Origin: Neobacillus cucumis
Lineage (GTDB): Bacteria; Bacillota; Bacilli; Bacillales_B; DSM-18226
Direction: 5' to 3'
Assembly (NCBI RefSeq): GCF_023715505.1
Contig: NZ_JAMBOH010000045.1
Location: forward strand, 1-26,552
DNA length: 26,552 bases
Shown piece after piece: positions 321 to 13,846 of this stretch (within the stretch, counting starts at the first letter, position 1; each line of letters opens with the position of its first letter). Both the position numbers and the translations under genes were made by a program. The notes beneath the pieces were generated by a model. It made no database searches. It was given only the letters and a program-made list of their open reading frames with translations, and was not told the origin of the DNA.

Positions 321-1337
321 TTACTCTCTTTTTAAAACAGAATTCCGAACGATTTTCTTTGTTTCTATGACCGTCTGTGCTGTCAGTACGTTATTTTCTT
401 TTATTTTAGAGAACAGGATGGCAGCTCCAGCCTTTCCTAGTTCTCGGACTGGTATTTCTATACAGGTCAAGGCCGGGGTAAGAAATGAGGTATGCCCCAT
501 ATTACTGTAGCCCGTGATCGAAAGTTCTTTCGGGATGGTAATGTTCAGTTCTGAAGCTGTTTTATAGACACTCACGACTTTTAAATCATCTGTCGCAAAC
601 ACGGCTGTTGGGCGCTGTTTAGTGGCGAACAGCTGTTTAGCTGCCAAACTTCCTGAATCAAGGGTATAACCGCTGTCGATCACCCATTCCTTCCGAAGTG
701 GTAAACCATAATCATTCATACAGGCTTTATAGCCCTCAAGCCTGTCAATAGAGACATGATAGTCTAATGGTGAATGCAAGCAGGCAATATCCTGATGACC
801 TTGTTCAATTAGATATTTAGTTAAATCATAGCTATCCTGAAAGTTATCCGTATCAACTGAGAAGATATTTTGAAAATCACCTTCTACTTTTCCAATGACA
901 ACTATCGGTATATTAAAAAGATCCAGCTGTTTAAGAAAGTCCTCTTTAGCTGGTGAACTTAGCATGATAATCCCTTTAATCATTTTTCCGCGGATTTTGG
1001 CTATGCACTTTTCGAGTTCGTCCTTGCTATTTTTAGATGTCTGCAAAATCACATCAAAGTTTTCTTCCTCTGCTTTTTCCGCTATGGTTTGCAGGATATC
1101 AGCGAAAAAGGGGTTGTGTGTGGTTGTTTTTGCTGACCGTGATACGACCATAACCGCATCAAATCCGGAGGAAAGTGCCCTTGCTAACTTACTGGGCTGA
1201 TAATTTAATTGTTCAATGGCTCTCATGACGCGCTCACGTGCTTCATCTGAGATATTAGTTTGGTTATTCAGCACTCGGGATACAGTTGATTTTGAAACAT
1301 TTGCCGCCCGGGCAATATCATATATGGTGTAGCCCAA
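321..1337 (-). CDS. LacI-family transcriptional repressor of the adjacent sugar operon
   Basis: The 338-residue product has the usual LacI/GalR length and layout. Residues 3-25 form the helix-turn-helix ([20 protein letters not shown]), followed by the hinge ([15 protein letters not shown]). From about residue 60 it has a periplasmic-binding-protein-like effector domain, including the [12 protein letters not shown] and SITGYSNM segments. The start is TTG (1337-1335) with a strong upstream GGAGAGGAGGGAG on the minus strand. It is divergent from the ycj-like operon, so it is the positional counterpart of E. coli YcjW and most likely binds the repeated TGGGAGCGGTACCA sites at 1561-1672. The effector is probably a sugar or sugar phosphate of the pathway, which is inference. 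Family assignment is certain; the target is very likely but unproven. Confidence 0.93.
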
Positions 1338-1380
1338 AAAACTCCCTCCTCTCCAAATGGAATTGTTTTTTTGTCAAAAT

Positions 1381-1400
1381 AAACGGAAGTAGATCCGTTT
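1381..1400. promoter_or_regulatory. Inverted repeat upstream of the repressor gene
   Basis: A perfect 7-bp inverted repeat, AAACGGA / TCCGTTT, with a 6-bp spacer lies 44-63 bp upstream of the TTG start of the lacI-type gene. It differs from the TGGGAGCGGTACCA operators. It could be an autoregulatory site or the binding site of another factor, or part of the leader RNA. Confidence 0.35.
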
Positions 1401-1440
1401 ACACTATTGGATATATCAATTCGTAGGAGTTACTTATAAG

Positions 1441-1454
1441 TGGGAGCAATACAC
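1441..1454. promoter_or_regulatory. Degenerate upstream operator copy (O4)
   Basis: TGGGAGCAATACAC matches the three downstream operators at 10 of 14 positions. It lies 120 bp upstream of the first good copy, between the divergent genes, so it could serve as an auxiliary site for repression looping or for repressor autoregulation. Confidence 0.4.
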
Positions 1455-1524
1455 GATACATTATAGAGATGAAAACGGAATCAATCAACTTGTTTTTTTA
1501 AAATTGAAATATATAATTGTTCGG

Positions 1525-1553
1525 TTGACAGATTATATTTTCTGTACTATATT
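1525..1553 (+). promoter_or_regulatory. Sigma-A promoter of the ycj-like operon
   Basis: The -35 TTGACA (1525-1530) is a perfect consensus. It is separated by 17 bp from the -10 TATATT (1548-1553, 5 of 6 consensus). The predicted start near 1560 falls on the edge of the first operator. This leaves an approximately 235-nt untranslated leader before the first gene, containing two more operators and a cre-like site. Confidence 0.8.
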
Positions 1554-1560
1554 TACCTTG

Positions 1561-1574
1561 TGGGAGCGGTACCA
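1561..1574. promoter_or_regulatory. LacI-type operator O1
   Basis: TGGGAGCGGTACCA. Extended by a flanking base on each side, the repeated motif is an imperfect 16-bp palindrome around a central CG, as is usual for LacI/GalR operators. It resembles the CelR-type site TGGGAGCGCTCCCA known from actinobacteria. O1 overlaps the predicted transcription start and should block initiation. Confidence 0.75.
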
Positions 1575-1604
1575 TACCTTTCACTCTCTTTTTTTTTAAT
1601 GAAC

Positions 1605-1618
1605 TGGGAGCGGTACCA
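1605..1618. promoter_or_regulatory. LacI-type operator O2
   Basis: This is an exact second copy of TGGGAGCGGTACCA, 44 bp after O1 and inside the untranslated leader. Confidence 0.7.
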
Positions 1619-1658
1619 CGTAAATGAATCTAGAAACTTTATATTTTTTTACCGTTTG

Positions 1659-1672
1659 TGGGAGCGGTACCA
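1659..1672. promoter_or_regulatory. LacI-type operator O3
   Basis: This is an exact third copy of TGGGAGCGGTACCA, 54 bp after O2. With its flanks it reads GTGGGAGCGGTACCAC, the most symmetrical copy. Confidence 0.7.
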
Positions 1673-1735
1673 CGGGGAGGGATTACATTTTTGTCGTAGT
1701 GAAATACTAAAAACCGACATTTATTTTTACTTTTA

Positions 1736-1749: not shown

Positions 1750-1795
1750 GACAACCATTCATTAAAAATATATTTTCTGCGAGGAGGCAGGATCA

Positions 1796-3100
1796 ATGAT
1801 AAAAAAAGGACTCTACTTATTTATGATGCTTCTAGTCATTGCGGCTTTGACCGCTTGCGGTGGGGGAGAGAAAGCAGATGGCAGTGGAAAAGTTACGATT
1901 GAGTTCATGCATTCTTCCGTTGAACAGGAACGTTTAGCAGTTATTGATAAACTGGTTGCAAAATTTGAAAAAGAAAATCCTGATATCAAAATTAAGCAGG
2001 TTCCAGTTGAAGAAGATTCCTATAATACGAAGATTGTTACGTTAGCAAGTGCTGGCAAACTTCCTGCCGTTTTGGAAGTGGGACAGGATTACGCGAAGGT
2101 AATGGATAAAGATCAATTAATAGACAAAGGATCTGTTAAATCGGTCCTCGCGAAAGCTGGCAAAGAGAATTTTTACGAGGGTGCATTGAAATTAGTAAAA
2201 ACTGAGGATGGAAAAAGCTATACAGGTGTACCAATCAGCGGATGGGTTCAAGGGATTTGGTATAACAAAGAAATGCTTGCTGCAAAAGGATTTCAAGAAC
2301 CAAAGAATTGGGACGATGTGTTAGCAATTGCTAAAGCGTTTACAGATGAAAAGAACAAAAAGTACGGAATTGCTATCCCGACAGTTGAAGGTGGTTTCTC
2401 CGAGCAGGCGTTCTCTCAATTCGCGTTATCAAACAATGCCAATATTCTTGATGGCAAAGGAAAGTTAGCTGTTAACTCGACAGAAATGAAGGAAGCACTA
2501 ACTTTCTATCAAGAATTATCTAAATACACCATGCCAGGATCTAATGATGTTACCGAAGTAAAAGATGCGTTCATGAACGGATCCGCACCAATGGCGGTTT
2601 ACTCTACTTATCTTCTTCCAGCTGTATTTGAGGAAGGAAATGCCGCTAATATTGGCTTTGCGATCCCAACTCAAAAAACAAAAGCCGTATTTGGAACCGT
2701 TTCAGCCTTAACGATTTCTTCTGGCCTGGAAGATGACCAGAAAAAGGCAGCAGAAAAGTTCGTAGAATTTATGGCACAGCCAGAAAACATGACAGATTGG
2801 GTTTTAATGTCTCCAGGAGGAGCACAGCCTGTCAGCAAGCAGGTCATTGAGAACGAAAAATATCAATCAAACGAGGTAGTGAAAGCTTTTGGTGAACTAT
2901 CGAATGAAATAGCAGCATCTTATAACGATATTCAAGTGTTTGGATTAGTAGATGGTAAGAACTTCTTGGAAATGGGTGATATCACTAGCTCTGGTGCTAT
3001 CCCAAAAATGGTCAATGGGATTACGGTTGGTGGAAAGAGCATTAACAGTGAGTTAAAAACAGCGAGCAAGTCCATTCAAGAGATTTTAGACAAAAAGTAA
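1796..3100 (+). CDS. ycjN: Sugar ABC transporter substrate-binding lipoprotein (YcjN-like)
   Basis: This extracellular solute-binding protein, family 1 (MalE/UgpB type), captures the sugar outside the membrane and delivers it to the two permeases encoded next. Residues 1-20 are a lipoprotein signal peptide ending in the lipobox LTAC, with Cys21 the lipidated residue. The rest has typical family segments such as VTIEFMHSSVEQERLAVIDKL, GIWYNKEMLAAKGFQEPKNWDD and FMNGSAPMAVYSTYLLP. At 434 residues it has normal length. The ATG is preceded by GAGGAGG. It is the first gene after the operator-rich leader. A GC-rich hairpin follows the stop codon and may favour higher output of this gene than of the permeases. 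The ligand, presumably an alpha-1,2-linked glucoside or related guloside, is inferred from the neighbours only. Confidence 0.92.
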   Translation: MIKKGLYLFMMLLVIAALTACGGGEKADGSGKVTIEFMHSSVEQERLAVIDKLVAKFEKENPDIKIKQVPVEEDSYNTKIVTLASAGKLPAVLEVGQDYAKVMDKDQLIDKGSVKSVLAKAGKENFYEGALKLVKTEDGKSYTGVPISGWVQGIWYNKEMLAAKGFQEPKNWDDVLAIAKAFTDEKNKKYGIAIPTVEGGFSEQAFSQFALSNNANILDGKGKLAVNSTEMKEALTFYQELSKYTMPGSNDVTEVKDAFMNGSAPMAVYSTYLLPAVFEEGNAANIGFAIPTQKTKAVFGTVSALTISSGLEDDQKKAAEKFVEFMAQPENMTDWVLMSPGGAQPVSKQVIENEKYQSNEVVKAFGELSNEIAASYNDIQVFGLVDGKNFLEMGDITSSGAIPKMVNGITVGGKSINSELKTASKSIQEILDKK

Positions 3101-3110
3101 ATTTTTTCTG

Positions 3111-3140
3111 GTGGCGGGATCCTGAGCACCTTCCCGCCGC
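3111..3140 (+). promoter_or_regulatory. Intercistronic hairpin after the binding-protein gene
   Basis: A 9-bp stem (GTGGCGGGA / TCCCGCCGC, one G-U pair) with a 12-nt loop lies 11 nt after the stop codon. No T-run follows, so it is unlikely to be a full terminator. mRNA 3'-end stabilisation is the more likely role. Confidence 0.6.
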
Positions 3141-3174
3141 TATCCAAACTAAAACCATTACCTTAGGGAGTTTT

Positions 3175-3251: not shown

Positions 3252-3303
3252 CCTTCCTGCTCAGGTGGTTCAAAAACAAGATGACTTTTTAGGGAGGGAA
3301 ACC

Positions 3304-4173
3304 ATGAAAGCGATAAAGAGAGAGAAATCAGATTTGAAATTGGCACTTGTTCTGCTATTTCCAAGTATCTTCTTAGTACTGTTGCTTGTTGCCTATCCGA
3401 TGATTTCAAATATTCAAATCAGCTTTTTAGATCTACCGATCAATCCGAGGCTGGATGCCACATTTGTCGGGTTGAAGCATTACACAGACATTTTAACTGA
3501 CGTGGCGTTTCTTAAATCATTGGGAATAACGCTTTTATACATGATACTTGCCGTAGCCGGAAGTACAGCGCTGGGATTAGGTGTGGCCATCTTCTTTAAC
3601 CGGCCATTCAAATTTCGGAAGCTGGCACGTTCATTGATCATCTTATCCTATGTTACTCCGTCTATTTCTTTAGTGTTTGCATGGAAGTACATGTTCAATA
3701 ACAGCTATGGTGTCATCAATTATTTGGGTGTAGATGTCCTTGGGCTATTTGACAAGGCGCCGCTTTGGTTTGATAAACCAGTGAGCAGTTTTATCCTAGT
3801 TGTGTTATTTGCCATCTGGAGATACTTTCCTTACGCTTTTATTTCTTTCTTGGCGATACTTCAAACCATTGATTCTAGTATTTATGAAGCAGCCGAAATT
3901 GATGGGGCATCTGCCTGGAACAAATTTAAGATCGTTACGCTTCCAGCGATTATGCCGGTGTTAATCACCGTTGTTACACTTCGTTCGATCTGGTTGTTCT
4001 ATATGTTCACCGATGTTTATCTGCTGACAAACAAAGTGAACATACTAGGTATTTACCTGTATAAAACAGCATTTGCTTTCAATGACCTTGGTAAAGCTGC
4101 TTCGATTTCAGTCATTCTGTTTATTATTCTTTCTATTGTAATTATAGCAACACGAAAGCGGGTGAAATACTAA
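3304..4173 (+). CDS. ycjO: Sugar ABC transporter permease, MalF/UgpA type (YcjO-like)
   Basis: This 289-residue integral membrane subunit of a carbohydrate importer has about six hydrophobic helices, the first at roughly residues 11-33. The EAA loop reads EAAEIDGASAWNKFKIVTLPAI and is the docking site for the transport ATPase. I start it at ATG 3304 because GGGAGGGAAACC lies directly upstream. The 13-residue upstream extension in the same frame has no ribosome site. The stop overlaps the next start by one base (TAATG), so the two permeases are translationally coupled. Confidence 0.93.
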   Translation: MKAIKREKSDLKLALVLLFPSIFLVLLLVAYPMISNIQISFLDLPINPRLDATFVGLKHYTDILTDVAFLKSLGITLLYMILAVAGSTALGLGVAIFFNRPFKFRKLARSLIILSYVTPSISLVFAWKYMFNNSYGVINYLGVDVLGLFDKAPLWFDKPVSSFILVVLFAIWRYFPYAFISFLAILQTIDSSIYEAAEIDGASAWNKFKIVTLPAIMPVLITVVTLRSIWLFYMFTDVYLLTNKVNILGIYLYKTAFAFNDLGKAASISVILFIILSIVIIATRKRVKY

Positions 4174-5027
4174 TGGCGATGGCAAGTACCAAAAAGGTAA
4201 AGACAGTTAGGAAGGTTGGCTTTTACACGGCACTGATTGCGCTATTAATCGTTAGTTTATTTCCTTTCTTTGTCATGCTGATGACATCCTTTAAATCGTC
4301 GAAGGAAGCGGTGTCCACCAGTCCGACCATGCTGCCGAAGGATTGGACATTGAAGCATTATATCGATATTTTTAACCCTGATATTTTTCCGTTTCTGTCT
4401 TATTTTAAAAACAGCTTAGCCGTTTCCCTTACGGCATCTACAATCGCGGTATTAATTGGGATATTCGGTGCCTATGCCTTGTCGAGGCTGAAGTTTACCG
4501 GTAGAACAACCATTAATGCAAGCTTCTATACCGTGTATATGTTTTCTGGGATTTTGCTTGTTGTACCTTTGTTCAAAATCATTTCAGGTCTTGGCCTATA
4601 CGATACGAAAACAGCGCTTGTGATAACAATGATTGTTCAGACCTTGCCGACTGCGATTTTTATGTTAAAAAGTTACTTTGATACGATTCCGGATGATCTG
4701 GAAGAAGCAGCTTCAATCGATGGCTTAAACCGAATTCAGATTATCTTCTATATTATTATTCCGTTATCGGTATCTGGGATTATCTCTGTGTTTGTTTATT
4801 CGTTTATGGTTTCGTGGAACGATTACTTGTTTGCGTCGATTTTCTTATCAGATTCAGTTAACTTCACCCTGCCAATCGGATTAAACACATTGTTCAGTAC
4901 CCCTGATTATGTTTGGGGAAGGATGATGGCAGCGTCACTTATTACAGCCTTACCGGTTGTCATCATGTATGCTCTTTCTGACCACTTCATTAAGGGCGGT
5001 GCGACAGAAGGCGGCGTTAAAGGGTAA
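4173..5027 (+). CDS. ycjP: Sugar ABC transporter permease, MalG/UgpE type (YcjP-like)
   Basis: This second permease subunit has 284 residues, six predicted membrane helices and the EAA loop EEAASIDGLNRIQIIFYIIIPL. It pairs with the preceding permease, whose stop it overlaps (TAATG), and with the lipoprotein encoded upstream. No ATP-binding subunit is encoded anywhere in this operon, so the transporter probably borrows a shared MsmX/MsmK-type ATPase, as many Bacillus sugar importers do. Confidence 0.93.
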   Translation: MAMASTKKVKTVRKVGFYTALIALLIVSLFPFFVMLMTSFKSSKEAVSTSPTMLPKDWTLKHYIDIFNPDIFPFLSYFKNSLAVSLTASTIAVLIGIFGAYALSRLKFTGRTTINASFYTVYMFSGILLVVPLFKIISGLGLYDTKTALVITMIVQTLPTAIFMLKSYFDTIPDDLEEAASIDGLNRIQIIFYIIIPLSVSGIISVFVYSFMVSWNDYLFASIFLSDSVNFTLPIGLNTLFSTPDYVWGRMMAASLITALPVVIMYALSDHFIKGGATEGGVKG

Positions 5028-5091: not shown

Positions 5092-6150
5092 ATGAAAAAA
5101 CTTATTGCTGCAGCACCAAGAGTCGCTGCGTTAGTGGAATATGAAGATCGTGCGTTACAAGCAAATGAGGTAAGAATTGATGTTGAGTTTGCTTCGCCAA
5201 AACATGGTACCGAGGTCATTGACTTCCGTGGGATCACGCCGTTTATCGATGAATATTTCGATGAAAAGTGGCGCATGTTTATGCCTCGTGAAGAAGGAGC
5301 TGCACCTGGGATCGTCTTTGGTGAATTCCAGCTTGGAAACATGGTTGTCGGTAAAATTGTCGAAAAAGGCAATGAGGTAACCGATTATGAAATCGGCGAA
5401 ACGGTTTGTACGTATGGTCCCATCATGGAAACAGTCATTGCCAATGCAGTCGATAACCACCGCCTGCTCAAGATGCCAGAAGGTGCAAAATGGCAAAACG
5501 CGGTTTGCTACGATCCGGCTCAGTTCGCGTTAAGCGGAGTCCGTGATGCCAATGTTCGTGCCGGAGATTATGTCGTTGTTGTGGGATTAGGTGCGATCGG
5601 TCAAATAGCCATTCAGCTTGCAAAAAAAGCAGGAGCAAGCATCGTTATTGGGGTAGATCCTTTAGAAAAGCGCCGTGACATCGCCTTAAGAAATGGTGCC
5701 GATTTCTGTTTGGATCCAATCTCTACGGATGTTGGCTATGAAGTGAAAAGACTAACCAACAAGCTCGGAGCGGATTCCATTATTGAAACAAGTGGAAACG
5801 TTGCAGCCCTTCAGTCTGCGTTAAAGGGAATCGCATATGGCGGAATTATCTCCTATGTTGCTTTTACAAAGCCATTCCCTGAGGGCTTGAATTTAGGTAG
5901 GGAAGCTCATTTCAACAATGCAAAGATTGTCTTCTCACGTGCGGCGAGTGAACCAAATCCAGATTATCCTCGCTGGAACCGCAAGCGAATTGAAGCGACT
6001 TGCTGGGAATTATTAATGAACGGTTATTTAAATTGTGTCGATATCATTGATCCGGTTGTCCGCTTTGAAGAGAGTGCTGAGTCCTATATGGAATACATCG
6101 ATAAGCACCCTGAGCTAAGCATTAAAATGGGAATCGAGTATAAAAAGTAA
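5092..6150 (+). CDS. ycjQ: Medium-chain dehydrogenase, probable D-guloside 3-dehydrogenase (YcjQ-like)
   Basis: This 352-residue NAD(P)-dependent MDR/alcohol dehydrogenase-like enzyme has a GroES-like N-terminal domain (about 1-150). Its Rossmann fold has the GLGAIG motif at 165-170 and a GVDP segment (187-190) at the end of the second strand, suggesting NAD use. The E. coli counterpart YcjQ oxidises C3 of D-gulosides, working with YcjR and YcjS. The start is ATG 5092, preceded by AAAGAGG; the longer same-frame extension from 4957 overlaps the permease gene and is rejected. The usual zinc motif CGxD appears as HGTE (38-41), and the four-cysteine structural zinc loop is missing. Class is certain; substrate is inferred from synteny. 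Confidence 0.85.
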   Translation: MKKLIAAAPRVAALVEYEDRALQANEVRIDVEFASPKHGTEVIDFRGITPFIDEYFDEKWRMFMPREEGAAPGIVFGEFQLGNMVVGKIVEKGNEVTDYEIGETVCTYGPIMETVIANAVDNHRLLKMPEGAKWQNAVCYDPAQFALSGVRDANVRAGDYVVVVGLGAIGQIAIQLAKKAGASIVIGVDPLEKRRDIALRNGADFCLDPISTDVGYEVKRLTNKLGADSIIETSGNVAALQSALKGIAYGGIISYVAFTKPFPEGLNLGREAHFNNAKIVFSRAASEPNPDYPRWNRKRIEATCWELLMNGYLNCVDIIDPVVRFEESAESYMEYIDKHPELSIKMGIEYKK

Positions 6151-6207: not shown

Positions 6208-7002
6208 ATGAAAATTGGCACACAGAACCAGGCGTTTTTTCCAGAGGATATTAAGGGAAAGTTTCGTTATCTCAAGGAAGTAGGATTTGACGGCTTTGAA
6301 ATCGACGGGAAGCTGTTGGTTGACCATTTAGAAGAGGTAAAGGAAGCAATCGCCGAAACAGGAATCCCGGTTACTACTGCCTGTGGGGGATATAATGGCT
6401 GGATTGGTGATTTTATTGAAGAGCGCAGGGAGAATGGATTGGCGGAAATTAAACAAATCCTCGAAGCGCTGCAGCAGGTAGGCGGAAAGGGAATCGTCGT
6501 GCCGGCAGCTTGGGGAATGTTCACGTATCGACTCCCGCCGATGCAGTCTCCGCGCAGTCAAGAGGGTGACCGCAAGGCGGTAACGGATTCTCTCCTTTAT
6601 TTGGACAAGGTGGCGGAAGAAACAGGGACGACGATTTTCCTTGAGCCATTGAATCGTTACCAAGATCATATGATTAATACGTTGGCCGATGCCCGAAGCT
6701 ATATTGAAGAAAACAAGTTGAAGCATGTAAAAATCATCGCGGATTTTTATCATATGAATATCGAAGAGGACGGCATCTCAAAAGCTTTACACGAAAACCG
6801 TGACTTAATTGGCCATATCCATTTAGCCGATAATCACCGTTATCAGCCAGGCAGCGGCTCGATTGACTTTAAGAAACACTTTGACCAGCTAAAAGAGGAT
6901 GGATATGACGGATTTCTGACACTTGAATGCCGAATCCGTGGAAATGATCCTAAAGCTGAATACAAACAGGCATTAGCACATCTAAGAGAAGCATCACGTT
7001 AA
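6208..7002 (+). CDS. ycjR: Sugar isomerase/epimerase, probable 3-keto-D-guloside C4 epimerase (YcjR-like)
   Basis: This 264-residue TIM barrel belongs to the xylose-isomerase-like (AP endonuclease 2) family. Metal-binding residues are visible: Glu146 in FLEPLNRY, Asp179 and His182 in IIADFYHM, His205 in GHIHLADNH, and Glu240 in GFLTLECR. E. coli YcjR epimerises C4 of 3-keto-gulosides to 3-keto-glucosides, between the reactions of YcjQ and YcjS. Both of those enzymes flank this gene here, which strongly supports the same role. The ATG has TAGGAGGAATC upstream. Related families include hydroxypyruvate isomerase and 3-keto-glucoside hydratases, so the exact chemistry is inference. Confidence 0.86.
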   Translation: MKIGTQNQAFFPEDIKGKFRYLKEVGFDGFEIDGKLLVDHLEEVKEAIAETGIPVTTACGGYNGWIGDFIEERRENGLAEIKQILEALQQVGGKGIVVPAAWGMFTYRLPPMQSPRSQEGDRKAVTDSLLYLDKVAEETGTTIFLEPLNRYQDHMINTLADARSYIEENKLKHVKIIADFYHMNIEEDGISKALHENRDLIGHIHLADNHRYQPGSGSIDFKKHFDQLKEDGYDGFLTLECRIRGNDPKAEYKQALAHLREASR

Positions 7003-7020: not shown

Positions 7021-8055
7021 TTGAAAAAGAAAGTGGCCATCATTGGAGCCGGACAGGTAGCGGAAAAAGTTCATGTCTCCTATTATCAAACACGCGAAGA
7101 ACTAGAATTGGCTGCCGTTGTTGGTCCTAATCCAGAACGGGTGAAGGACTTTGCTGAGCGCAATGGCATCCCCCAATACTTTACGAATGCTGAAGAAATG
7201 CATGCTGCCGTCAAGCCGGATATCGTCAGTGTCTGTACACCGAATCGCTTCCATTGTGAGAATGTTCTGCTTGCCATCGCCCATGGCTGCGATGTGATCT
7301 GCGAAAAACCACCGGCCATATCGGCGGCGGAAGCAAAACAGATGCGGGACGCAGCGGAAGCGAATGGCTGTCTGCTCGCTTATGATTTCCACCATCGCTT
7401 TGCTGACGATGTCACAATTCTCCATGATAAGGTGAAGGAAGGCATACTCGGGGATGTTTATGTAACGAAGGTAAAAGCCTTACGGCGCTGCGGAATTCCT
7501 GGCTGGGGCAGTTTTACGGATAAGGAAGTCCAGGGAGGCGGTCCGCTGATTGATCTTGGAGCGCATATGCTTGATGCTGCCCTATATGTACTTGGATTTC
7601 CAAAAATTAAGCGTGTGTCAGCGAAAATGTACCAAAAGATTGGGACGAAAAAATCAAAAGGCACATTGGGTGAATGGGACCCGAACAAATATGAGGTTGA
7701 GGATTCCTTATTTGGTTTTATTGAGCTTGAAGGCGGAGGTTTAATACAGCTTGAAACCTCTTTTGCCTTAAATATTAAGGATACTTCGATCATGAACGTA
7801 GAATTTTGCGGCGACGAGGCTGGTGCTACTCTTTTTCCAGCACAGATCTATACAGATGAAGGCGGCGAGCTTGTCTATCTTTTGGATAGAAAAACCGCTG
7901 ACGCTGACCGTCATCCAAAAAGTATGGAAGCCTTTGTTGATCGCTGCTTAGGAAAAGACGTGATGGTCGCCGACGGAAGGCAAGGATACGTCATCCAACA
8001 GCTTATCGAAGCATTGTATCAATCTGCTGAAAAAGGGGAAAGTGTAACCCTATGA
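7021..8055 (+). CDS. ycjS: Gfo/Idh/MocA oxidoreductase, probable D-glucoside 3-dehydrogenase (YcjS-like)
   Basis: This 344-residue NAD(P)-dependent sugar dehydrogenase has the N-terminal Rossmann motif AIIGAGQVAEKV (residues 6-17), the family motif EKP (95-97), and the catalytic signature GGGPLIDLGAHMLD with Asp178 and His182. E. coli YcjS oxidises or reduces C3 of D-glucosides. With YcjQ and YcjR it interconverts gulosides and glucosides. The start is TTG 7021, with AAAGGAGG about 11 nt upstream; no better in-frame start is seen. It overlaps the GH65 gene by four bases (ATGA), so the two are translationally coupled. Confidence 0.88.
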   Translation: MKKKVAIIGAGQVAEKVHVSYYQTREELELAAVVGPNPERVKDFAERNGIPQYFTNAEEMHAAVKPDIVSVCTPNRFHCENVLLAIAHGCDVICEKPPAISAAEAKQMRDAAEANGCLLAYDFHHRFADDVTILHDKVKEGILGDVYVTKVKALRRCGIPGWGSFTDKEVQGGGPLIDLGAHMLDAALYVLGFPKIKRVSAKMYQKIGTKKSKGTLGEWDPNKYEVEDSLFGFIELEGGGLIQLETSFALNIKDTSIMNVEFCGDEAGATLFPAQIYTDEGGELVYLLDRKTADADRHPKSMEAFVDRCLGKDVMVADGRQGYVIQQLIEALYQSAEKGESVTL

Positions 8056-10274
8056 ATAAAAAACGGGGAATATATGAACATGGATTTGATGTACATTATC
8101 TGAATAAGTATTCGAGTTTGCTAGCATTGGGAAATGGTTACTTAGGTATCCGCGGTACTCATGAGGAGGACTATACCGGTCAAACCCGAGGAATGTATGT
8201 GGCAGGGGTCTACAATAAGGCGACAGCTAATGAACCTTCAGAGCTGGTCAATTTACCGGACATTACCGGAATCGTGATTGAAATCGACGGACAGCCGTTT
8301 TCCCTGCTTGATGGTGAGGTCCTTTCTTATGAACGGTCGCTTCAGTTCGAAACTGGTGAATTGCGGCGGGAGGTAGTCTGGAAGAGTAAAACAGGTGCCC
8401 GCTATGAGCTTCTGTTGCAGCGCTTTGTTGCCAAGCATGACTTGCATGTTATTGCATCTAAATTAACTCTTATCAGCTTAGATCAACCAGCCGCAGTTAA
8501 AATTGTGACCGGAATCAATGCTCAGCAAACAAACTTCGGAAAACAGCATTTAATCGAGGAAAGTGTCCGAGTATTTAATGAAGAAATCATTCAGGGTGTT
8601 TATAAAACGACTGAATCAGGCGTAACGGTGGCGGTTGGTTCAAGCTTCCATATACCTGAACATAGCAAGAAGACGTTCTCAGCGAAAAACCGCCAGCTGC
8701 TGGCCGCCATTTCGCAGGAAGTGGCGAAGGATGAACCATTCGTGTTTGAAAAATTAAGCACGGTTTATACTTCTCATGAATGCGATCGTCCCGAAACCGT
8801 TAGTTTGGAAGCGGTTCAAGCGATAGCCTTACAGCAGTATGAGGATTTACTAAAAAGATCCGCTGCAGCATGGAAGGAATTTTGGGAACAGAAGAGGATT
8901 ATAATCACATCAACAGATGAGTTTGATCAGACGGCGATGGATTTTGCTCTCTATCATATGGAGATCATGACCCCGGCCCATGATGATCGCTTCAGTATCG
9001 GTGCCAAAGGTCTTACTGGTGAAGGATATAAAGGGCATGTTTTCTGGGATACGGAAATTTTCCTTGCTCCGTTCCATCTTTACACCGAGCCGGAAACCGC
9101 GAAAAAGCTGTTACTGTATCGTTACAAGCATTTACGGGAGGCACAGGAAAAAGCTGTGCAAAATGGTTATCAGGGAGCTTTATTCCCATGGGAAAGCGCC
9201 TTTACAGGAAAAGAGGAGACACCAGAGTATGCGGCCATCAATATTCGAACTGGAACTCGCCAAAAAGTGGCTTCCGCCCTTGCTGAGCATCATATCGTGG
9301 CTGACATCGCCTTTGCTGTTGTTCAGTATTACGAGAATACGATAGATGAAGAGTTTATGAAAAATGAAGGCCTTGCTCTGCTTAAAGAAACAGCACGTTT
9401 TTGGATCAGTCGAACCGTGGATGAAGGGGAACGGCTTTCCATCCATGATGTAATCGGGCCGGACGAGTATACGGAGCACATCAATAACAATGCTTATACG
9501 AATTATATGGCCTATTACAATGTAGAACAAGCCCTTTATTTTATGGAGCAATATGGAGATGTCGATTCATCAATAATCGAGCAGGGACGGGACTTTTTAA
9601 AACGTCTGTATTTGCAAAAGCCAAATGACGAGATGATTATTCCACAGGACGATACATTCTTAACGAAACCAGCGATTGACTTGACTCCTTATAAACAAAA
9701 GCAGGGAAGCCAAGCGATTTTACTAGATTATTCGCGCCAGGAAGTCAATGAAATGCAGATTCTCAAGCAGGCCGATCTTGTCATGCTGCTCTATCTGTTC
9801 CCGGATTCGTTTTCCAATGAAGTCGTCATGAAAAACCTTTTCTATTACGAGGACCATACGATTCACGATTCTTCCCTAAGCAAGGCGATCCACGCGATTG
9901 TGGCTGCCCGCTGTGATGATGATGAAGCGGCATACCGCTTTTTCCAGGAAGCTTGTTTAATCGATTTGGGACCGAATCCGCATTCATCAGACGAAGGACT
10001 TCATGCTGCATCACTAGGGGCCATTTGGCTGGCGGCGATGTTTGGTTTTGCGAATTTGAAAATAGGTTTGGACCGGCTGGCTTTAGATCCTAAGCTTCCG
10101 GAAAACTGGACCGAGCTAAAGTTCCCGCTAACTTATCAAGGGAGAACGCTTGAATTCAAGCTGACAAAACAAGTATGCGAGATTACTAAACTTTCAGGAC
10201 CTGAATTGGAAATTAATATAAATGGTGACATATTCAAGCTGTGTGACCGGCTTGAAGTACCGATGACGAACTAA
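8052..10274 (+). CDS. ycjT: Glycoside hydrolase family 65 phosphorylase, probable kojibiose phosphorylase (YcjT-like)
   Basis: This 740-residue cytoplasmic inverting phosphorylase splits an alpha-glucosyl disaccharide with phosphate to give beta-glucose 1-phosphate. The N-terminal domain carries the GNGYLGIRGTHEE motif. The (alpha/alpha)6 barrel contains GHVFWDTEIF and the catalytic acid Glu472 in IGPDEYTEHINNNAYTN. The phosphate-binding segment HSSDEGLHAASLGAIW follows, and a small C-terminal beta domain ends the protein. GH65 includes maltose, trehalose, nigerose and kojibiose enzymes that cannot be separated safely by eye. Kojibiose (alpha-1,2) is chosen because the cluster matches E. coli ycj, where YcjT has this activity. 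The adjacent beta-phosphoglucomutase uses its product. Confidence 0.87.
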   Translation: MNKKRGIYEHGFDVHYLNKYSSLLALGNGYLGIRGTHEEDYTGQTRGMYVAGVYNKATANEPSELVNLPDITGIVIEIDGQPFSLLDGEVLSYERSLQFETGELRREVVWKSKTGARYELLLQRFVAKHDLHVIASKLTLISLDQPAAVKIVTGINAQQTNFGKQHLIEESVRVFNEEIIQGVYKTTESGVTVAVGSSFHIPEHSKKTFSAKNRQLLAAISQEVAKDEPFVFEKLSTVYTSHECDRPETVSLEAVQAIALQQYEDLLKRSAAAWKEFWEQKRIIITSTDEFDQTAMDFALYHMEIMTPAHDDRFSIGAKGLTGEGYKGHVFWDTEIFLAPFHLYTEPETAKKLLLYRYKHLREAQEKAVQNGYQGALFPWESAFTGKEETPEYAAINIRTGTRQKVASALAEHHIVADIAFAVVQYYENTIDEEFMKNEGLALLKETARFWISRTVDEGERLSIHDVIGPDEYTEHINNNAYTNYMAYYNVEQALYFMEQYGDVDSSIIEQGRDFLKRLYLQKPNDEMIIPQDDTFLTKPAIDLTPYKQKQGSQAILLDYSRQEVNEMQILKQADLVMLLYLFPDSFSNEVVMKNLFYYEDHTIHDSSLSKAIHAIVAARCDDDEAAYRFFQEACLIDLGPNPHSSDEGLHAASLGAIWLAAMFGFANLKIGLDRLALDPKLPENWTELKFPLTYQGRTLEFKLTKQVCEITKLSGPELEININGDIFKLCDRLEVPMTN

Positions 10275-10287
10275 AAGGGGTGGAGTG

Positions 10288-10950
10288 ATGGAGAACAAAC
10301 GGATTGAGGCGGTTGTGTTTGATTTAGATGGGGTGATCACGGATACGGCCCATTTTCACTTTCTTGCTTGGAAACAGCTGGCCGAAGAGCTCGGTATCTT
10401 CATTGATGAAGAGTTTAATGAACGGTTGAAAGGGGTCAGCCGAATGGATTCCCTTGAGTTGATTTTACGGGAGGGCAACCGCCAAAACGACTTTAGTCTG
10501 ACACAAAAGGAAGAAATGGCGGCTAAGAAGAATGCTCATTACTGTGAATTTTTAACAGAATTAACACCTGACGATATATTGCCGGGCATCCCGGAATTGA
10601 TTGCTGCTATTAAGGAAGAGGGGCTTCCGATAGGGCTTGCGTCCGTTTCGAAGAATGCTGGAACGGTATTAAAGGCATTACAGCTTGAAGATGCTCTTGA
10701 TTATGTTGCGGATGCAGCGAAGATTAGTAAATCCAAGCCAGACCCAGAAATCTTTTTAACGGCCTGCAAAGGACTGGGTGCCGACCCTGAGTATTCAATT
10801 GGAATCGAGGATGCGCAAGCTGGGATCGAAGCGATTAAAGCGAGCGGAATGTTTGCCGTAGCCGTTGGCCGGAACCTTGCCAATGCAGATTACAAGGTTG
10901 ATAGAACAGCAGAGCTTCTATGGGGAAAAATAAAGGCAGAATATGAATAG
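10288..10950 (+). CDS. pgmB: Beta-phosphoglucomutase (YcjU-like)
   Basis: This 220-residue HAD-superfamily enzyme converts beta-D-glucose 1-phosphate to glucose 6-phosphate. The nucleophile and acid/base pair are Asp12 and Asp14 in VVFDLDGVITD. A small cap domain follows, then the Ser motif (ASVSKNA), the Lys region SKSKPDPEIF, and IEDAQAGIEAIKASGM with the magnesium-binding acidic residues. Its role is to take the product of the GH65 phosphorylase into glycolysis. ATG 10288 is preferred over GTG 10285 because AAGGGG is 7 nt upstream of it. A terminator-like hairpin follows the gene. Confidence 0.93.
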   Translation: MENKRIEAVVFDLDGVITDTAHFHFLAWKQLAEELGIFIDEEFNERLKGVSRMDSLELILREGNRQNDFSLTQKEEMAAKKNAHYCEFLTELTPDDILPGIPELIAAIKEEGLPIGLASVSKNAGTVLKALQLEDALDYVADAAKISKSKPDPEIFLTACKGLGADPEYSIGIEDAQAGIEAIKASGMFAVAVGRNLANADYKVDRTAELLWGKIKAEYE

Positions 10951-10963
10951 ATTTTAATTTAAC

Positions 10964-10990
10964 GCTGTAGACATGATCTACAGCCTTTTT
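10964..10990 (+). terminator. Intrinsic terminator inside the operon
   Basis: GCTGTAGA pairs with TCTACAGC across a 5-nt loop and is followed by CTTTTT. It lies between the beta-phosphoglucomutase gene and the GH13_18 gene, so it should reduce transcription into the last two genes unless read through. Confidence 0.75.
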
Positions 10991-11015
10991 ATAAAGAGAT
11001 TTAGGAGATGAAGAT

Positions 11016-12695
11016 GTGATGATCCTTACAAAAATAGAACAGAAACTGAAGAGTATTTATAAAGAAGAATATCAGGAAAGCTTTTTAGATCAGTTTCGGA
11101 AGTTGATTGATCAATGGGAGAAGGAACAATGGGACAAGATTGATGCCCCTTCTGAGAAAAATGTTTATTTAATCACGTATGGTGACAGTATTTTCGAGCA
11201 GGGGAAACCGACGTTAGAAACATTGCATCAGTTTTTAAAAAAGGAAGTTGAGGATACGATCACTGATGTTCATTTGCTGCCAATGTTCCCTTACACGTCT
11301 GATGATGGTTTTTCCGTTGTCGATTATAACGAGATTAACCCAGAGTTAGGGAAATGGGACCATATCAAAAACATGTCTAGTGATTACAGGCTGATGTACG
11401 ACTTTGTCGCCAACCATATCTCCAAATCAAGTGAGTGGTTCCAAGGCTACCTCAACGGGGAGGAAAAATATCAGGGATATTTCATTCCGAAGGACCCAGA
11501 GTTTAACACTGAGAATGTGGTTCGCCCAAGAACATCGCCGCTTTTCCATGAGTATGAGGGGAAGGATGGGGTGAAGACAGCTTGGACTACGTTCAGTGAG
11601 GACCAAGTGGATTTGAACTTCCGTCATTTCCCTGTTCTGGTTGAAACAACGGAAATTTTACTATCCTATGCACATAAAGGAGCGTCCAGCATTCGTTTGG
11701 ATGCAATTGGATTCATCTGGAAGGAATCAGGTACCTCTTCCATGCATTTACCGGAAGCCCATGCGATCATTCAACTGTGGCGCGATGTGTTAAATCATTT
11801 CAAGCCGAATACGCAGATTATTACGGAAACGAATGTGCCGCATCAGGAAAACATCAGCTACTTTGGTGATGGTACGAATGAAGCGCATATGGTCTATCAG
11901 TTTTCTCTGCCGCCGCTTGTCCTGCATACGATGACTACTCATGATGCGACGAAGCTGTCTTCCTGGGCACAGACGATTGGCAAGGTGTCAAATGAGGCCA
12001 CGTACTTTAATTTCCTTGCCAGCCATGACGGAATTGGCATGCGCCCAACAGAAGGTATTTTAACAGAAGAAGAGAAACAAAGATTAGTCGATAAGGTCGT
12101 TGAAAACGGCGGAAGGATTTCCTATAAGACGAATACCGATGGCAGCCAGTCTGTCTATGAAATGAATATCAACTACTCCAACGCCTTAATTAATAAGGGG
12201 GAAGATGATACAGAAGAATTAGCGGTGAAAAAGATGCTTGCAGCTCACTCGATTCTTTTATCAGTGATGGGTGTACCTGCGATTTACTACCACTCTTTGC
12301 TAGGTTCAGAAAATGATTATGAAGGTCTAGAAGCATCAGGCATTAATCGCCGTATCAACCGTGAAAAGCTTGAGTTTGCTGAGATTACGAGAGAGTTAGT
12401 GGAAAATCCACGTCGCCAGGGTATCTTCCAAGGATTACGGAAGATGATTTCCATTCGCCAGCAGCAAAGCGCCTTCTCGCCGTATGCACCGCAAACAGTG
12501 GTAGACCTTGGTTCGAACTTATTTGCCTTGAAGCGTCGCAATGATACAACTGGGGATGAAGTTTTCTTCATCGTCAATGTTGATTCGCAACCGGTAGTAG
12601 CGGAAATTGGGATCAAGGGTCGTGACCTGTTAACAGGTAGAGAGATCGATTCCCAAATTACGCTTGAGCCGTACCAATTTGTATGGGTAAGGTGA
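11016..12695 (+). CDS. ycjM: GH13_18 sucrose-phosphorylase-like enzyme, probable glucosylglycerate phosphorylase (YcjM-like)
   Basis: This retaining alpha-amylase-family phosphorylase has about 558 residues. GH13 regions are visible: DFVANHIS (region I), nucleophile Asp in SIRLDAIGF (about residue 228), acid/base Glu in IITETN (about 270), and the third Asp in FLASHDGIGM (about 337). Subfamily 18 includes sucrose, sucrose 6-phosphate, glucosylglycerol and glucosylglycerate phosphorylases. The last is favoured because a glycerate kinase follows directly and because E. coli YcjM has this activity. Products would be alpha-glucose 1-phosphate and D-glycerate. The start may be GTG 11016 (8 nt after AGGAG) or ATG 11019. 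A terminator precedes it. Confidence 0.86.
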   Translation: MMILTKIEQKLKSIYKEEYQESFLDQFRKLIDQWEKEQWDKIDAPSEKNVYLITYGDSIFEQGKPTLETLHQFLKKEVEDTITDVHLLPMFPYTSDDGFSVVDYNEINPELGKWDHIKNMSSDYRLMYDFVANHISKSSEWFQGYLNGEEKYQGYFIPKDPEFNTENVVRPRTSPLFHEYEGKDGVKTAWTTFSEDQVDLNFRHFPVLVETTEILLSYAHKGASSIRLDAIGFIWKESGTSSMHLPEAHAIIQLWRDVLNHFKPNTQIITETNVPHQENISYFGDGTNEAHMVYQFSLPPLVLHTMTTHDATKLSSWAQTIGKVSNEATYFNFLASHDGIGMRPTEGILTEEEKQRLVDKVVENGGRISYKTNTDGSQSVYEMNINYSNALINKGEDDTEELAVKKMLAAHSILLSVMGVPAIYYHSLLGSENDYEGLEASGINRRINREKLEFAEITRELVENPRRQGIFQGLRKMISIRQQQSAFSPYAPQTVVDLGSNLFALKRRNDTTGDEVFFIVNVDSQPVVAEIGIKGRDLLTGREIDSQITLEPYQFVWVR

Positions 12696-12700
12696 GAAGA

Positions 12701-13846
12701 ATGAATTTTTTGATTGCGACAGATTCCTTCAAGGATTCACTTTCTTCATTAGAAGTAGGGAAATGTGTAGAAAAAGGTACCTTACGGGCGATGCCAGATG
12801 CCCAGGTGGTCATTTCTCCCATGGCTGACGGTGGAGAGGGAACGATTGATGCACTCCTTCATGGTGGAAAAGGGCAGGAGATTGAGGTGCAAGTTCATTC
12901 TCCCCTCATGGAAAAAATAACGACTAGTTATGTTGTTTTTAGTCAAGAAGATAAAGAATTTGTTTTTATCGAATGTGCAAGGAGCAGTGGGTTGCCTCTT
13001 GTTCCAACGGAATTACGGAATCCGATGGTCACCAACACTTATGGGTTTGGCGAGCAGATTAAGGATGCTATCGACAAAGGTTATCGCCACTTTATTCTTT
13101 CACTGGGAGGAAGTGCCACCAACGACGGTGGAATCGGCATGCTCCAGGCTTTAGGCTGGGAGTTCTTTGATGAAAAAGGAGAACACATCGGGGCCGAGGC
13201 AAATCCGTTATTACAGGTGGCCACTTTTTCGGATCGGAATGTACTGCCTGGGGTTGAGGATTGTACCTTTATCGCGGCTAGTGATGTGACGAACCCATTT
13301 TATGGACCAAATGGTGCGGCCCATATCTTTGGTAGGCAAAAAGGGGCCAGTGAGGACGAGATCGTTGTCTTAGATAGCGCATTGCAACGGTTTTCTGCTT
13401 TGATTAAGGAGAACTATGATGTTGATGTTCAAGAAGTGGCCGGGGCTGGCGCCGCCGGAGGTTTAGGTGGAGCCATTGTCGGTCCGTTGAGAGGGTCGAT
13501 TCGGTCCGGGGTGGAGCTAGTGATGGAGCTAACCGGCCTAGAGGATAAAATAAAGTCGGCCGATGTCGTGATTACTGGAGAGGGAAGCCTTGATAACCAG
13601 TCGATGATGGGCAAGGTGCCGTTCGGAATCGCCAAGCTTGCGAGGAAATATGGAAAACCTGTCATTGGGATTGCGGGAAGAATTGATACCAACCTGGAAG
13701 AAGTCAATAAATACCTCAACGGCGTATTTTCAATTCAAACGCAGTGCCATACCCTAGAAGAAGCCCTTAACCCAGAGGTTACCTCTCTTCAGCTTGAAGT
13801 CAAAGCCCAGCAAATTGCAAACGTGATTGTAGGAGTTCAGAGATAA
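12701..13846 (+). CDS. glxK: Glycerate kinase, GlxK/GarK type
   Basis: This 381-residue protein belongs to glycerate kinase family 1 (COG1929), which phosphorylates D-glycerate with ATP, usually at position 2. Characteristic segments are IATDSFKDSLSS at the N-terminus, ISPMADGGEGT, LSLGGSATNDGGIGMLQALG, AGAGAAGGLGGAI and VVITGEGSLDNQS. Length is normal. I chose ATG 12701 because AAGGTGAG lies just upstream; the earlier in-frame ATG at 12683 overlaps the end of the previous gene and has no good ribosome site. Its place after the GH13_18 phosphorylase suggests that it consumes the glycerate released from glucosylglycerate. The E. coli ycj cluster itself has no such gene. Confidence 0.93.
   Translation: MNFLIATDSFKDSLSSLEVGKCVEKGTLRAMPDAQVVISPMADGGEGTIDALLHGGKGQEIEVQVHSPLMEKITTSYVVFSQEDKEFVFIECARSSGLPLVPTELRNPMVTNTYGFGEQIKDAIDKGYRHFILSLGGSATNDGGIGMLQALGWEFFDEKGEHIGAEANPLLQVATFSDRNVLPGVEDCTFIAASDVTNPFYGPNGAAHIFGRQKGASEDEIVVLDSALQRFSALIKENYDVDVQEVAGAGAAGGLGGAIVGPLRGSIRSGVELVMELTGLEDKIKSADVVITGEGSLDNQSMMGKVPFGIAKLARKYGKPVIGIAGRIDTNLEEVNKYLNGVFSIQTQCHTLEEALNPEVTSLQLEVKAQQIANVIVGVQR

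Follow-up and report, generated by a model that had tools for sequence, protein, structure and literature searches.

The window analysed here, a 26,552-nucleotide stretch of Neobacillus cucumis DNA, is best explained as carrying a ycj-type glycoside-degradation operon into which a glucosylglycerate phosphorylase (GGaP) and glycerate kinase (GK) gene pair has been swapped, with the glycerate arm on the pathway (probability about 0.75). What is new is that the GGaP-type gene, judged by its tree position, is not the native ycjM.

Gene content and regulatory sites

All the genes named in the first-pass annotation are present, in one plus-strand run with a divergent LacI-family gene ahead (Table 1). 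Ten genes between positions 321 and 12695 have E. coli ycj counterparts, at 42–74% identity, and a GK gene follows. Each gene had one near full-length BLASTP match among the ycj proteins of E. coli K-12, which excludes chance; orthologues of N-O-P-Q-R-S-T-U are all present, in the ycj order. The top PDB match of the YcjR-type protein was 6wn6, the solved E. coli YcjR (E = 3e-131), as expected of an orthologue. E. coli YcjQ and YcjS are annotated as D-guloside 3-dehydrogenase and D-glucoside 3-dehydrogenase respectively. The MDR dehydrogenase likely starts at 5092, residues 1–45 of the listed ORF having no YcjQ counterpart; the GH13_18 protein likely starts at 11019 (GTG ATG) and the GK at 12701, 5 bases past the GH13_18 stop. 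Rfam and tRNA scans gave no matches.

Table 1. Features of the operon and its flanks.
Feature	Position	Strand	Basis
LacI-family repressor, YcjW type	321..1337	-	LacI + Peripla_BP domains; 60% to YcjW
Promoter-like site TTGACA-17-TATATT	1525..1553	+	consensus scan, 11/12; directly 5' of operators
Putative operator copy 1, TGGGAGCGGTACCA	1561..1574	+	exact match
Putative operator copy 2, TGGGAGCGGTACCA	1605..1618	+	exact match
Putative operator copy 3, TGGGAGCGGTACCA	1659..1672	+	exact match
ABC solute-binding protein (SBP), YcjN type	1796..3100	+	SBP_bac_1; 52% to YcjN
ABC permease, YcjO type	3265..4173	+	BPD_transp_1; 71% to YcjO
ABC permease, YcjP type	4173..5027	+	BPD_transp_1; 73% to YcjP
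MDR dehydrogenase, YcjQ type	5092..6150	+	ADH_zinc_N; 74% to YcjQ from listed-ORF residue 46
3-keto-glycoside 4-epimerase, YcjR type, xylose-isomerase-like barrel	6208..7002	+	73% to YcjR
Gfo/Idh/MocA dehydrogenase, YcjS type	7021..8055	+	domain match; 61% to YcjS
GH65 kojibiose phosphorylase (KP), YcjT type, by motif	8052..10274	+	52% to YcjT; motif EEAPAL
Beta-phosphoglucomutase, YcjU type	10285..10950	+	TIGR01990 267 bits, cut-off 189; 50% to YcjU
GH13_18 GGaP by signature, 3'-located/mng lineage	11019..12695	+	TETN, loop A, tree; 42% to YcjM
Glycerate kinase	12701..13846	+	PF02595 434 bits, cut-off 23; TIGR00045 427 bits, cut-off 168; tree
Terminator-like hairpin past operon	13914..13931		weak

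No ABC ATPase, and hence no YcjV, was found among the scanned ORFs of 321–13846, whereas the three relatives searched all encode a UgpC/MsmX-type ATPase elsewhere in the genome. The complete route first proposed is therefore incomplete within the operon, while its glycerate arm ending in a kinase is supported. Glucosylphosphoglycerate synthase had no above-cut-off match in 5/5 relatives, each of which gave weak matches, a result consistent with catabolism.

The three 14-base putative operators share the core TGGnnnCGnnnCCA with the E. coli sites (L001, positions 191 and 10119), so that a YcjW-type repressor gene is accompanied by TGGnnnCGnnnCCA at the promoter. With up to three mismatches, the operator pattern matched five times in the window versus a shuffle mean of 1.02. 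The ChIP-seq results described for E. coli locate YcjW at two places, ahead of ycjM and in the ycjT-ycjU interval (PMC6599011); the YcjW-type repressor would similarly bind the three predicted operators. The promoter-like site draws its support from its position, since such sites are rarer in the window than in shuffles (26 versus 33.0). The terminator-like hairpin is weak evidence because 17 such hairpins were found against a shuffled mean of 15.4.

Signature residues of the two phosphorylases

The printed KP rule is EEAPxx at CsKP positions 64, 392, 394, 402, 416 and 585 (PMC8537180). The window GH65 protein reads EEAPAL at these positions and its top PDB match is CsKP (3wiq), in line with a kojibiose phosphorylase. 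A glucosylglycerol phosphorylase reading was dropped: BsGGP (4ktp) scores below CsKP, and the printed alignment shows Ile and Gly in BsGGP at the places of CsKP Glu392 and Ala394.

The GGaP signature, as given in print, is (T/S)ETN at the tip of beta-strand 5 together with a Glu in loop A (PMC7178133). Both features of GGaP (EC 2.4.1.352) are observed directly in the window GH13_18 protein, as TETN at residues 270–273 and as loop A GIGMRPTEG, which supports the GGaP-type assignment made at first pass. Among the GH13_18 (M) proteins compared, TETN occurs in 81/82 rows and SETN in 1/82. The loop-A Glu is present in 32/32 rows on the window's side of the M tree, a count in which the 3'-located and mng rows are taken together with 16 rows from the database and 2 others, versus 0/50 rows for 5'-located YcjM, the E. 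coli protein among them. Sucrose phosphorylase (SP) identity was rejected: the top NCBIfam match, TIGR03852, scores 217/334 bits, below cut-off, and the SP motif given in print is missing from loop A.

Displacement of ycjM and recruitment of GK

In E. coli, ycjM is the first gene of the cluster, whereas the window GH13_18 gene is second-to-last of the run. All trees were 'quick' IQ-TREE searches with SH-aLRT as the sole support measure. The M tree has 82 rows, drawn from 120 listed database proteins (16 used), 96 locus rows (64 used) and 2 references. The 32 locus rows left out comprise 3 duplicates, 28 rows from outside Bacillota and the E. coli row, which came back as a reference. In this tree the 50 sampled 5'-located YcjM form one clade (SH-aLRT 100), and the window GGaP falls in another, which also serves mng-like (mannosylglycerate) operons; the window thus has a GGaP-type gene that is not orthologous to ycjM. 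The disagreement with the QRS backbone tree is direct: the latter rejects rows with a 5'-located M as one clade (p-AU 1.2e-63). Five changes of M position were counted on it, of which strong branches force three. Displacement is well supported in two cases, the group of the window and Paenibacillus; L143, L170 and L171 sit on long branches or have a weakly supported placement.

Linkage was counted in the best 80 of 140 YcjR relatives (37 Bacillota, 43 others). Within these 80, GK is contiguous with ycj in 31/37 Bacillota loci and in 1/43 others. The GK, first described as an added extension of the operon, is nothing unusual in Bacillota. It is dispensable at that place, being non-contiguous in 6/37 Bacillota and 42/43 other loci of the same sample; L002, the window's closest kin among named genomes, has a 3'-located M without GK. 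On the GK tree (86 rows, 17 of 103 collected being omitted as near-copies or duplicates) the ycj-linked GKs require 5 changes, or 4 without the long branch L171; L010 was removed from the ycj-linked set for this count because its GK sits 4.5 kb past U. A single clade of ycj-linked GKs was rejected (p-AU 2e-95, non-contiguous L010 still being scored as ycj). Some GKs classed as 'other' could be ycj-linked unseen, as most come with 1.5 kb flanks or from context-free protein-collection rows; database rows P0004, P0005 and P0015, whose ycj linkage is likewise unseeable, were left uncounted.

On the linkage counts and the trees, GK as a chance neighbour was rejected. It is very improbable that GK is a bystander of a GH13_18 enzyme acting on sucrose, sucrose-phosphate or glucosylglycerol. 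One GK could arrive by chance, because 89/101 genomes of the order carry a GK gene, and the best, below-cut-off NCBIfam match is a sucrose phosphorylase; however, TETN and RPTEG stand in place of the printed SP, SPP and GGoP loop-A motifs, and GK linkage arose repeatedly. Published work had already deduced the GGaP specificity from gene neighbourhoods, in which GK genes are among those often seen (Franceus and Desmet, 2020; PMC7178133).

We read these results to mean that GGaP was displaced and GK recruited more than once, which would place glucosylglycerate and glycerate on the pathway. In the window lineage, the 5'-located ycjM of relatives was probably replaced by a 3' GGaP-GK pair of another lineage. 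Alternatively, an ancestor with both M genes, followed by losses, could have given the 3'-located M; none of the best 80 of 140 YcjR relatives has two M genes, and tblastn searches of the window for a remnant of a 5'-located M or of an L005-type GK matched present genes only.

Proposed pathway and candidate substrates

In the proposed scheme, an incoming alpha-glycoside would release the YcjW-type repressor from its three tandem operators, and the glycoside would be imported by the SBP and the two permeases, powered by a shared ATPase that is encoded outside the operon. If the window proteins keep the activities described for their E. coli counterparts, the YcjQRS-type enzymes would convert a terminal gulosyl to a glucosyl residue (C3 oxidised, C4 epimerised, C3 reduced). 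Phosphorolysis of an alpha-1,2-glucosyl-glucose bond by the GH65 enzyme would give beta-Glc1P, to be converted to Glc6P by the mutase. The GH13_18 enzyme would phosphorolyse 2-O-alpha-glucosyl-D-glycerate to alpha-Glc1P and D-glycerate, and GK would phosphorylate glycerate for glycolysis. We infer that all these steps serve one pathway. Published work speaks against the scheme in that kojibiose as sole carbon source gave no E. coli growth and a YcjN ligand screen found none.

It is unlikely that the nutrient is glucosylglycerate or gulosylglycerate imported, split and phosphorylated on both halves, with GH65 and the mutase serving another sugar, as first proposed. The GGaP-GK pair is present, and L213, a distant locus, carries Q, R and M, a weak S-like gene only, and no T match in its 20 kb. 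However, the best 80 of 140 YcjR relatives include T (GH65) in 79/80 loci, U in 76/80 and M in 78/80, both loci without M beginning at a contig end; a single disaccharide leaves T and U unexplained, since glucosylglycerate alone needs neither KP nor beta-phosphoglucomutase. Of that first interpretation, the ycj backbone, the signatures and the glycerate arm stand; the unusual GK, the complete route and the single disaccharide find no support in the form proposed.

The near-constant company of T and M with R in these 80 loci is in keeping with the enzymes acting in series on one nutrient, a hexosyl-alpha-1,2-glucosyl-alpha-1,2-glycerate (gulosyl-, or glucosyl-, i.e. kojibiosylglycerate), a possibility that has the odds somewhat against it. 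YcjQRS would provide the terminal glucose and GH65 take it off; the glucosylglycerate that remains would go to GH13_18, and the glycerate released from it to GK. Kojibiose releases YcjW in vitro, and in the same report 'some derivative of kojibiose' is suspected as natural inducer (PMC6599011). An alpha-1,2 GH65 hydrolase, FjGH65A, is described as accepting other groups at +2 (PMC8626586), and a natural analogue, Man-(1->2)-Glc-(1->2)-glycerate, appears in a title cited in PMC3694870. In L145, a gene matching Man-Glc-glycerate synthase, below the curated cut-off, adjoins a GGaP-type gene and GK. The YcjT rim is unlike that of CsKP, with Arg at 412 in 87/87 rows, Ala for Trp416 in 87/88 and a 2-residue insertion in 88/88, in a set that counts two Paenibacillus loci twice. 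These changes possibly give room and charge for glycerate, but Arg412 may mean nothing because CsKP is the sole outside KP compared. L213, with QR and M and no GH65 match, argues against action in series, and neither kojibiosylglycerate nor gulosyl-glucosylglycerate is known as a natural product.

It is equally conceivable that kojibiose-type and glucosylglycerate-type glycosides are used in parallel through one importer and one regulator, YcjQRS salvaging gulosyl forms of either. YcjT and YcjM of E. coli are assigned different substrates, the one being catalogued as a kojibiose phosphorylase and the other as a GGaP, and GGaP-type genes occur without QRST too; the joint near-fixation of T and M in the sampled YcjR loci and the single operator set speak against this arrangement.

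A three-part glycerate osmolyte could be the natural, so far unrecognised substrate of ycj, GGaP displacements and GK gains then reflecting selection for its glycerate part, an idea to which we give less than even odds. Repeated GGaP replacement and GK recruitment in Gram-positives suggest that glucosylglycerate and glycerate are on the pathway; they narrow the substrate search to glycerate glycosides, and turn the question of the physiological substrate of ycj into a short list of compounds.

Comparison with known systems

Both ycj-type clusters of Firmicutes and the pairing of GGaP with GK in gene neighbourhoods have been published before, and the window is mostly known biology. Compared with E. 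coli ycj (ycjMNOPQRSTU, ycjV, a pseudogene in MG1655, ompG and ycjW), the window has nine orthologues, the N-to-U order and the operator core in common, as well as a YcjW-type regulator and a GGaP-type enzyme. Unlike in E. coli, its GGaP lies at the 3' end and belongs to another clade, GK is added, the regulator is divergent at the front, and no ATPase or porin gene was found. The window has three operators in one promoter, whereas the two E. coli sites lie apart, the first ahead of ycjM and the second where ycjT ends.

The backbone is common to other Bacillota ycj loci (Neobacillus sp. DY30, L005; Peribacillus; Gottfriedia; Listeria), where GK is usually present, belonging to different lineages and placed elsewhere, following T or U. 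Identities between the window and L005 are 71% for W, 80% for N, 89% for O, 88% for P, 84% for Q, 86% for R, 84% for S, 75% for T and 79% for U; the L005 M gene is 5'-located, with 44% identity to its counterpart in the window, and the two GKs share 43%.

Likened by their printed description, the GH13_18 GGaPs of the Meiothermus silvanus type (Franceus and Desmet) have TETN, the loop-A Glu and a GK neighbour in common with the window, whose GGaP, unlike theirs, lies within a QRST operon; among the window operon genes, neither a glucosylphosphoglycerate synthase nor a phosphatase was seen. Of six loci labelled mng, L139 was checked with HMMs (matches below curated cut-offs) and the other five were labelled from gene order and sizes; GK was found in 1/6 of the 18–20 kb stretches. 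The Bacillaceae locus L139 is among the closest GGaP kin outside ycj: its adjacent GGaP-type and GK genes are 70% and 58% identical to the window's, whereas a 2-O-mannosylglycerate PTS and a GH38 mannosylglycerate hydrolase (matches below curated cut-offs) replace the ABC importer, QRS and GH65.

Gene content of the operon and its match to the E. coli ycj cluster

The ORF listing of the window gave ten plus-strand genes in one run, which Pfam and NCBIfam matches assigned to an SBP, two permeases, an MDR dehydrogenase, a xylose-isomerase-like barrel protein, a Gfo/Idh/MocA protein, GH65, beta-phosphoglucomutase, GH13 and a glycerate kinase (GK). Compared by BLASTP with the E. coli K-12 ycj proteins, the regulator and the backbone genes had a single match each (YcjW 60, YcjN 52, YcjO 71, YcjP 73, YcjQ 74, YcjR 73, YcjS 61, YcjT 52, YcjU 50 and YcjM 42%); these matches and the domain assignments recovered the gene set named in the first-pass annotation. 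In contrast with the window, the E. coli ycj cluster has no counterpart of the GK, whose gene is separated from that of GH13_18 by 5 bases, given a GK start at 12701. The nearest named relatives of the window's GH13_18 in the protein collection were from Bacillus sp. AFS076308 (98%) and Neobacillus vireti (95%), which makes a Neobacillus-like host probable. An inverted repeat between the SBP and first permease genes could raise expression of the SBP above that of the other operon genes. Domain matches of the genes that follow the operon, up to 20346, gave no sign of a link with it.

Features of the window
Feature	Coordinates	Strand	Remarks
LacI-type regulator gene	321-1337	-	divergent from the operon
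Operator-like stretch	1441-1454		TGGGAGCAATACAC, degenerate, seen by eye 5' of the three exact operator copies; outside the patterns used
Operator copies	1561, 1605, 1659		TGGGAGCGGTACCA, exact, in the 458-base regulator-SBP gap
Inverted repeat	3109-3140		G+C-rich, seen by eye
Hairpin	10964-10984		terminator-like, then CTTTTTATAA, between the mutase and GGaP genes, where the putative swapped-in pair joins; hairpin count in the window not above chance
End of the ten-gene run	13846	+	
Genes beyond the operon	13954-20346		MetE-like methyltransferase, PanS-like symporter, CBS protein, thiamine-binding protein, four-gene amino-acid ABC transporter
Transporter ATPase gene	19618-20346		sole ATPase gene scanned; part of the amino-acid transporter set
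Multidomain protein	21567-23480		SLT lytic domain, SH3_3, four Big_6 Ig domains; above the NF033510 cut-off
Two-gene stretch	24287-25800		PspA/IM30 family protein, then Peptidase_M50B-like protein

Occurrence of ycj clusters and of the linked GK

A species-genome scan with a YcjR alignment gave 140 relatives, of which the best 80 (by record title, 37 Bacillota and 43 others) were analysed with their fetched flanks. The 37 Bacillota loci held YcjT in 37, YcjM in 36, YcjU in 34 and GK in 30 cases, and the 43 others held them in 42, 42, 42 and 1. Two loci without YcjM (L027 and L064) lie at a contig start; L038, without YcjT and YcjU, is not at such an edge. All but one of the 30 Bacillota GK genes have a ycj gene at most 69 bases away, the remaining one (L010) being 4.5 kb off, and in two Paenibacillus loci (L042 and L058) GK lies directly after YcjM, slightly beyond the fetched flank. 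GK is consequently contiguous with ycj genes in 31 of the 37 Bacillota loci among the best 80 of 140. Within the order, 17 of 397 genomes had YcjR at E<=1e-70; at E<=1e-60 it was present in 7 of 296 genomes of the Paenibacillus order and in 1 of 398 of a phylum sample, that one being the centre genome. Given this contiguity and these low counts, ycj clusters of Gram-positives as a rule come with GK, whereas the ycj cluster itself is uncommon; the GK described as an extension in the first-pass annotation is thus not unusual for this group.

One record labelled Chryseobacterium (L045) carries an Enterobacterales-like ycj cluster, and its YcjM and QRS sequences fall among Enterobacteriaceae; it is probably contamination or a mislabelled contig.

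Probable displacement of ycjM and recruitment of GK

Between the window and Neobacillus sp. DY30 (L005), YcjW and YcjN to YcjU are 71-89% identical, compared with 44% for YcjM and 43% for GK. Among the Bacillota of the best 80 of 140 loci, YcjM lies 5' of YcjR in 33 and 3' of it in three, and among the others it is 5'-located in 42; additional 3'-located cases came from later searches beyond the 80. In a YcjM tree of 82 rows, all 50 5'-located proteins formed one clade (SH-aLRT 100), and eight 3'-located ones, including the window's, were on the opposite side, interspersed with database proteins and proteins of mannosylglycerate-type (mng) operons. The three labels (5', 3' and mng) required five changes, database and two other rows being uncounted.

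The backbone tells a different story. In a QRS tree built from 58 rows and 962 columns, the window grouped with L002 and L167, all 3'-located (support 100), and this group joined the 5'-located L004 and L005 (support 100). The 3'/5' label changed five times, three of the changes being forced by strongly supported branches, and a single clade of 5' rows was rejected (p-AU 1.2e-63). Two 3' cases have a firm position: the window's group, and Paenibacillus, which is sister to 5'-located rows from Gottfriedia. L143, L170 and L171 have long branches or weakly supported positions. We read this conflict between the QRS and YcjM trees as displacement of YcjM on apparently more than one occasion. An ancestor that carried both YcjM genes, followed by losses, could conceivably have left the 3'-located copies, but none of the best 80 of 140 loci holds two YcjM genes.

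Because ycj-linked GKs fall in several lineages on the GK tree, we likewise read GK as having probably been recruited repeatedly. This tree had 86 rows, 25 of them ycj-linked including the window (L010 was removed from the ycj set and three rows were uncounted). The ycj label required five changes, or four without the long-branched L171; strongly supported branches forced four with L171 included. A single clade of ycj-linked GKs was rejected (p-AU 2e-95, L010 still counted as ycj in that test). The lineages are those with GK after YcjT (Bacillaceae, Fictibacillus, Listeria and Limnobaculum), after YcjU (L004/L005), after YcjM (the window and L167 in one lineage, Paenibacillus in another) and between YcjT and YcjM (L171). 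L002 has a 3'-located YcjM without an adjacent GK; therefore, the swap does not always include GK.

Specificity marks and relatives outside ycj

Glucosylglycerate phosphorylases (GGaP) are marked by (T/S)ETN and a Glu in loop A (Franceus and Desmet, 2020; PMC7178133). The window's GH13_18 has both, TETN and a loop A GIGMRPTEG, in agreement with its predicted assignment as GGaP. TETN was present in 81 of the 82 aligned YcjM rows and SETN in one. The loop-A Glu was conserved in all 32 rows that lie with the window in the tree, compared with 0/50 of the 5'-located clade (NP[ILV]RG). E. coli YcjM (L001:217-1896) and the 49 other 5'-located rows have Arg where the printed rule wants Glu. On these residues, the rule is a better fit to the window enzyme than to E. 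coli YcjM, which is itself tabulated as GGaP (PMC8950772).

Outside ycj, YcjM homologues follow genes whose products are about 650-680 and 890-930 aa long in six loci, with 68-71% identity in five of them and 63% in the sixth. In L139, these preceding genes match 2-O-mannosylglycerate PTS (NF007293, 502 bits, under the cut-off of 763) and mannosylglycerate hydrolase (NF007331, 794 bits, under the cut-off of 1138), with GK downstream. In L145 (5049-12419), the homologue (46%) and GK adjoin a mannosylglucosylglycerate synthase match (NF041101, 441 bits, under the cut-off of 640) and a sugar-diacid-type regulator, and in L144 the homologue adjoins an MGH1-like hydrolase. Judged by these neighbours, the GGaP-type genes that lie with the window in the tree accompany glycerate-glycoside metabolism.

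Kojibiose phosphorylases (KP) of GH65 are marked by EEAPxx (PMC8537180). The window's GH65 and E. coli YcjT both have EEAPAL, which agrees with the KP type predicted for the former. The 88 YcjT rows had EEAPAL (72), DEAPAL (15) or EEAPWL (1). Compared with the characterised KP CsKP (3wiq), their rim is remodelled, with Trp416 replaced by Ala in 87/88 rows, a two-residue insertion in 88/88 and Arg at position 412, which corresponds to Arg403 of the window's GH65, in 87/87 (L171 left out). Two long GH65 proteins (P0361, 970 aa, and P0305, 967 aa) were encountered; P0361, named beta-phosphoglucomutase, also has HAD domains and looks like a fusion of YcjT and YcjU functions.

A predicted operator shared with Enterobacterales

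Allowing up to three mismatches, the operator sequence repeated in the regulator-SBP gap had five matches in the window, compared with a shuffle mean of 1.02, and 0/100 shuffles reached five. E. coli carries TGGGACCGCTACCA directly upstream of ycjM and again where ycjT ends; the YcjW ChIP-seq sites reported lie upstream of the start of ycjM and in the ycjT-ycjU interval (PMC6599011). By position comparison, 20 of the 24 occurrences of the pattern TGGGANCGNTACCA in nine relatives were at the ycj locus; its reversed control occurred 10 times. Since the pattern recurs at ycj loci of relatives and of E. coli, the predicted operator is common to Bacillota and Enterobacterales, and the window's repressor presumably binds it.

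Proposed pathway and its substrate

The window's proteins would keep the activities reported for the E. coli proteins (PMC11543891; PMC8950772; E. coli annotation). In the chain with the best support, a glycoside would be imported and YcjQRS would convert guloside to glucoside; GH65 would release beta-Glc1P, which the mutase would turn into Glc6P, and GH13_18 would produce alpha-Glc1P and D-glycerate, the latter becoming phosphoglycerate by the kinase. Unlike the complete route proposed in the first-pass annotation, the operon falls short in import: no transporter ATPase was found in it, and a UgpC/MsmX-type ATPase was above cut-off in 3/3 relatives searched. Glucosylphosphoglycerate synthase had no match over cut-off in 5/5 relatives (weak matches in all five), which favours scavenging over the turnover of an endogenous solute.

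YcjT and YcjM are nearly inseparable in YcjR loci, suggesting that one nutrient requires both. This could be a hexosyl-alpha-1,2-glucosylglycerate, a single compound taken apart in series and compatible with every enzyme of the operon, although we know of no kojibiosylglycerate. Mannosyl-(1->2)-glucosyl-(1->2)-glycerate is a related compound that does occur naturally (title cited in PMC3694870). Kojibiose is reported to release YcjW in vitro, E. coli growth on kojibiose alone was not obtained in that work, and its authors suspected a kojibiose derivative as natural inducer (PMC6599011). Against a serial compound, L213 (8358-16295) has distant YcjQ, YcjR, a GGaP-type YcjM and a GH2 enzyme without a GH65 match. 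The serial compound is a tentative proposal (probability about one in three), and two parallel substrates are equally plausible.

Comparison with known clusters

A search of the open-licence literature returned no report of GK within ycj clusters or of ycjM displacement. Ycj-like clusters of Firmicutes (Enterococcus, Listeria and Bacillus; PMC11543891), Listeria genes named YcjP-S (PMC5808219) and the GGaP-GK neighbourhood (PMC7178133) have been published. The finding is sound and its claimed novelty modest; the part worth following is the evolutionary pattern, read here as ycjM displacement and GK recruitment.
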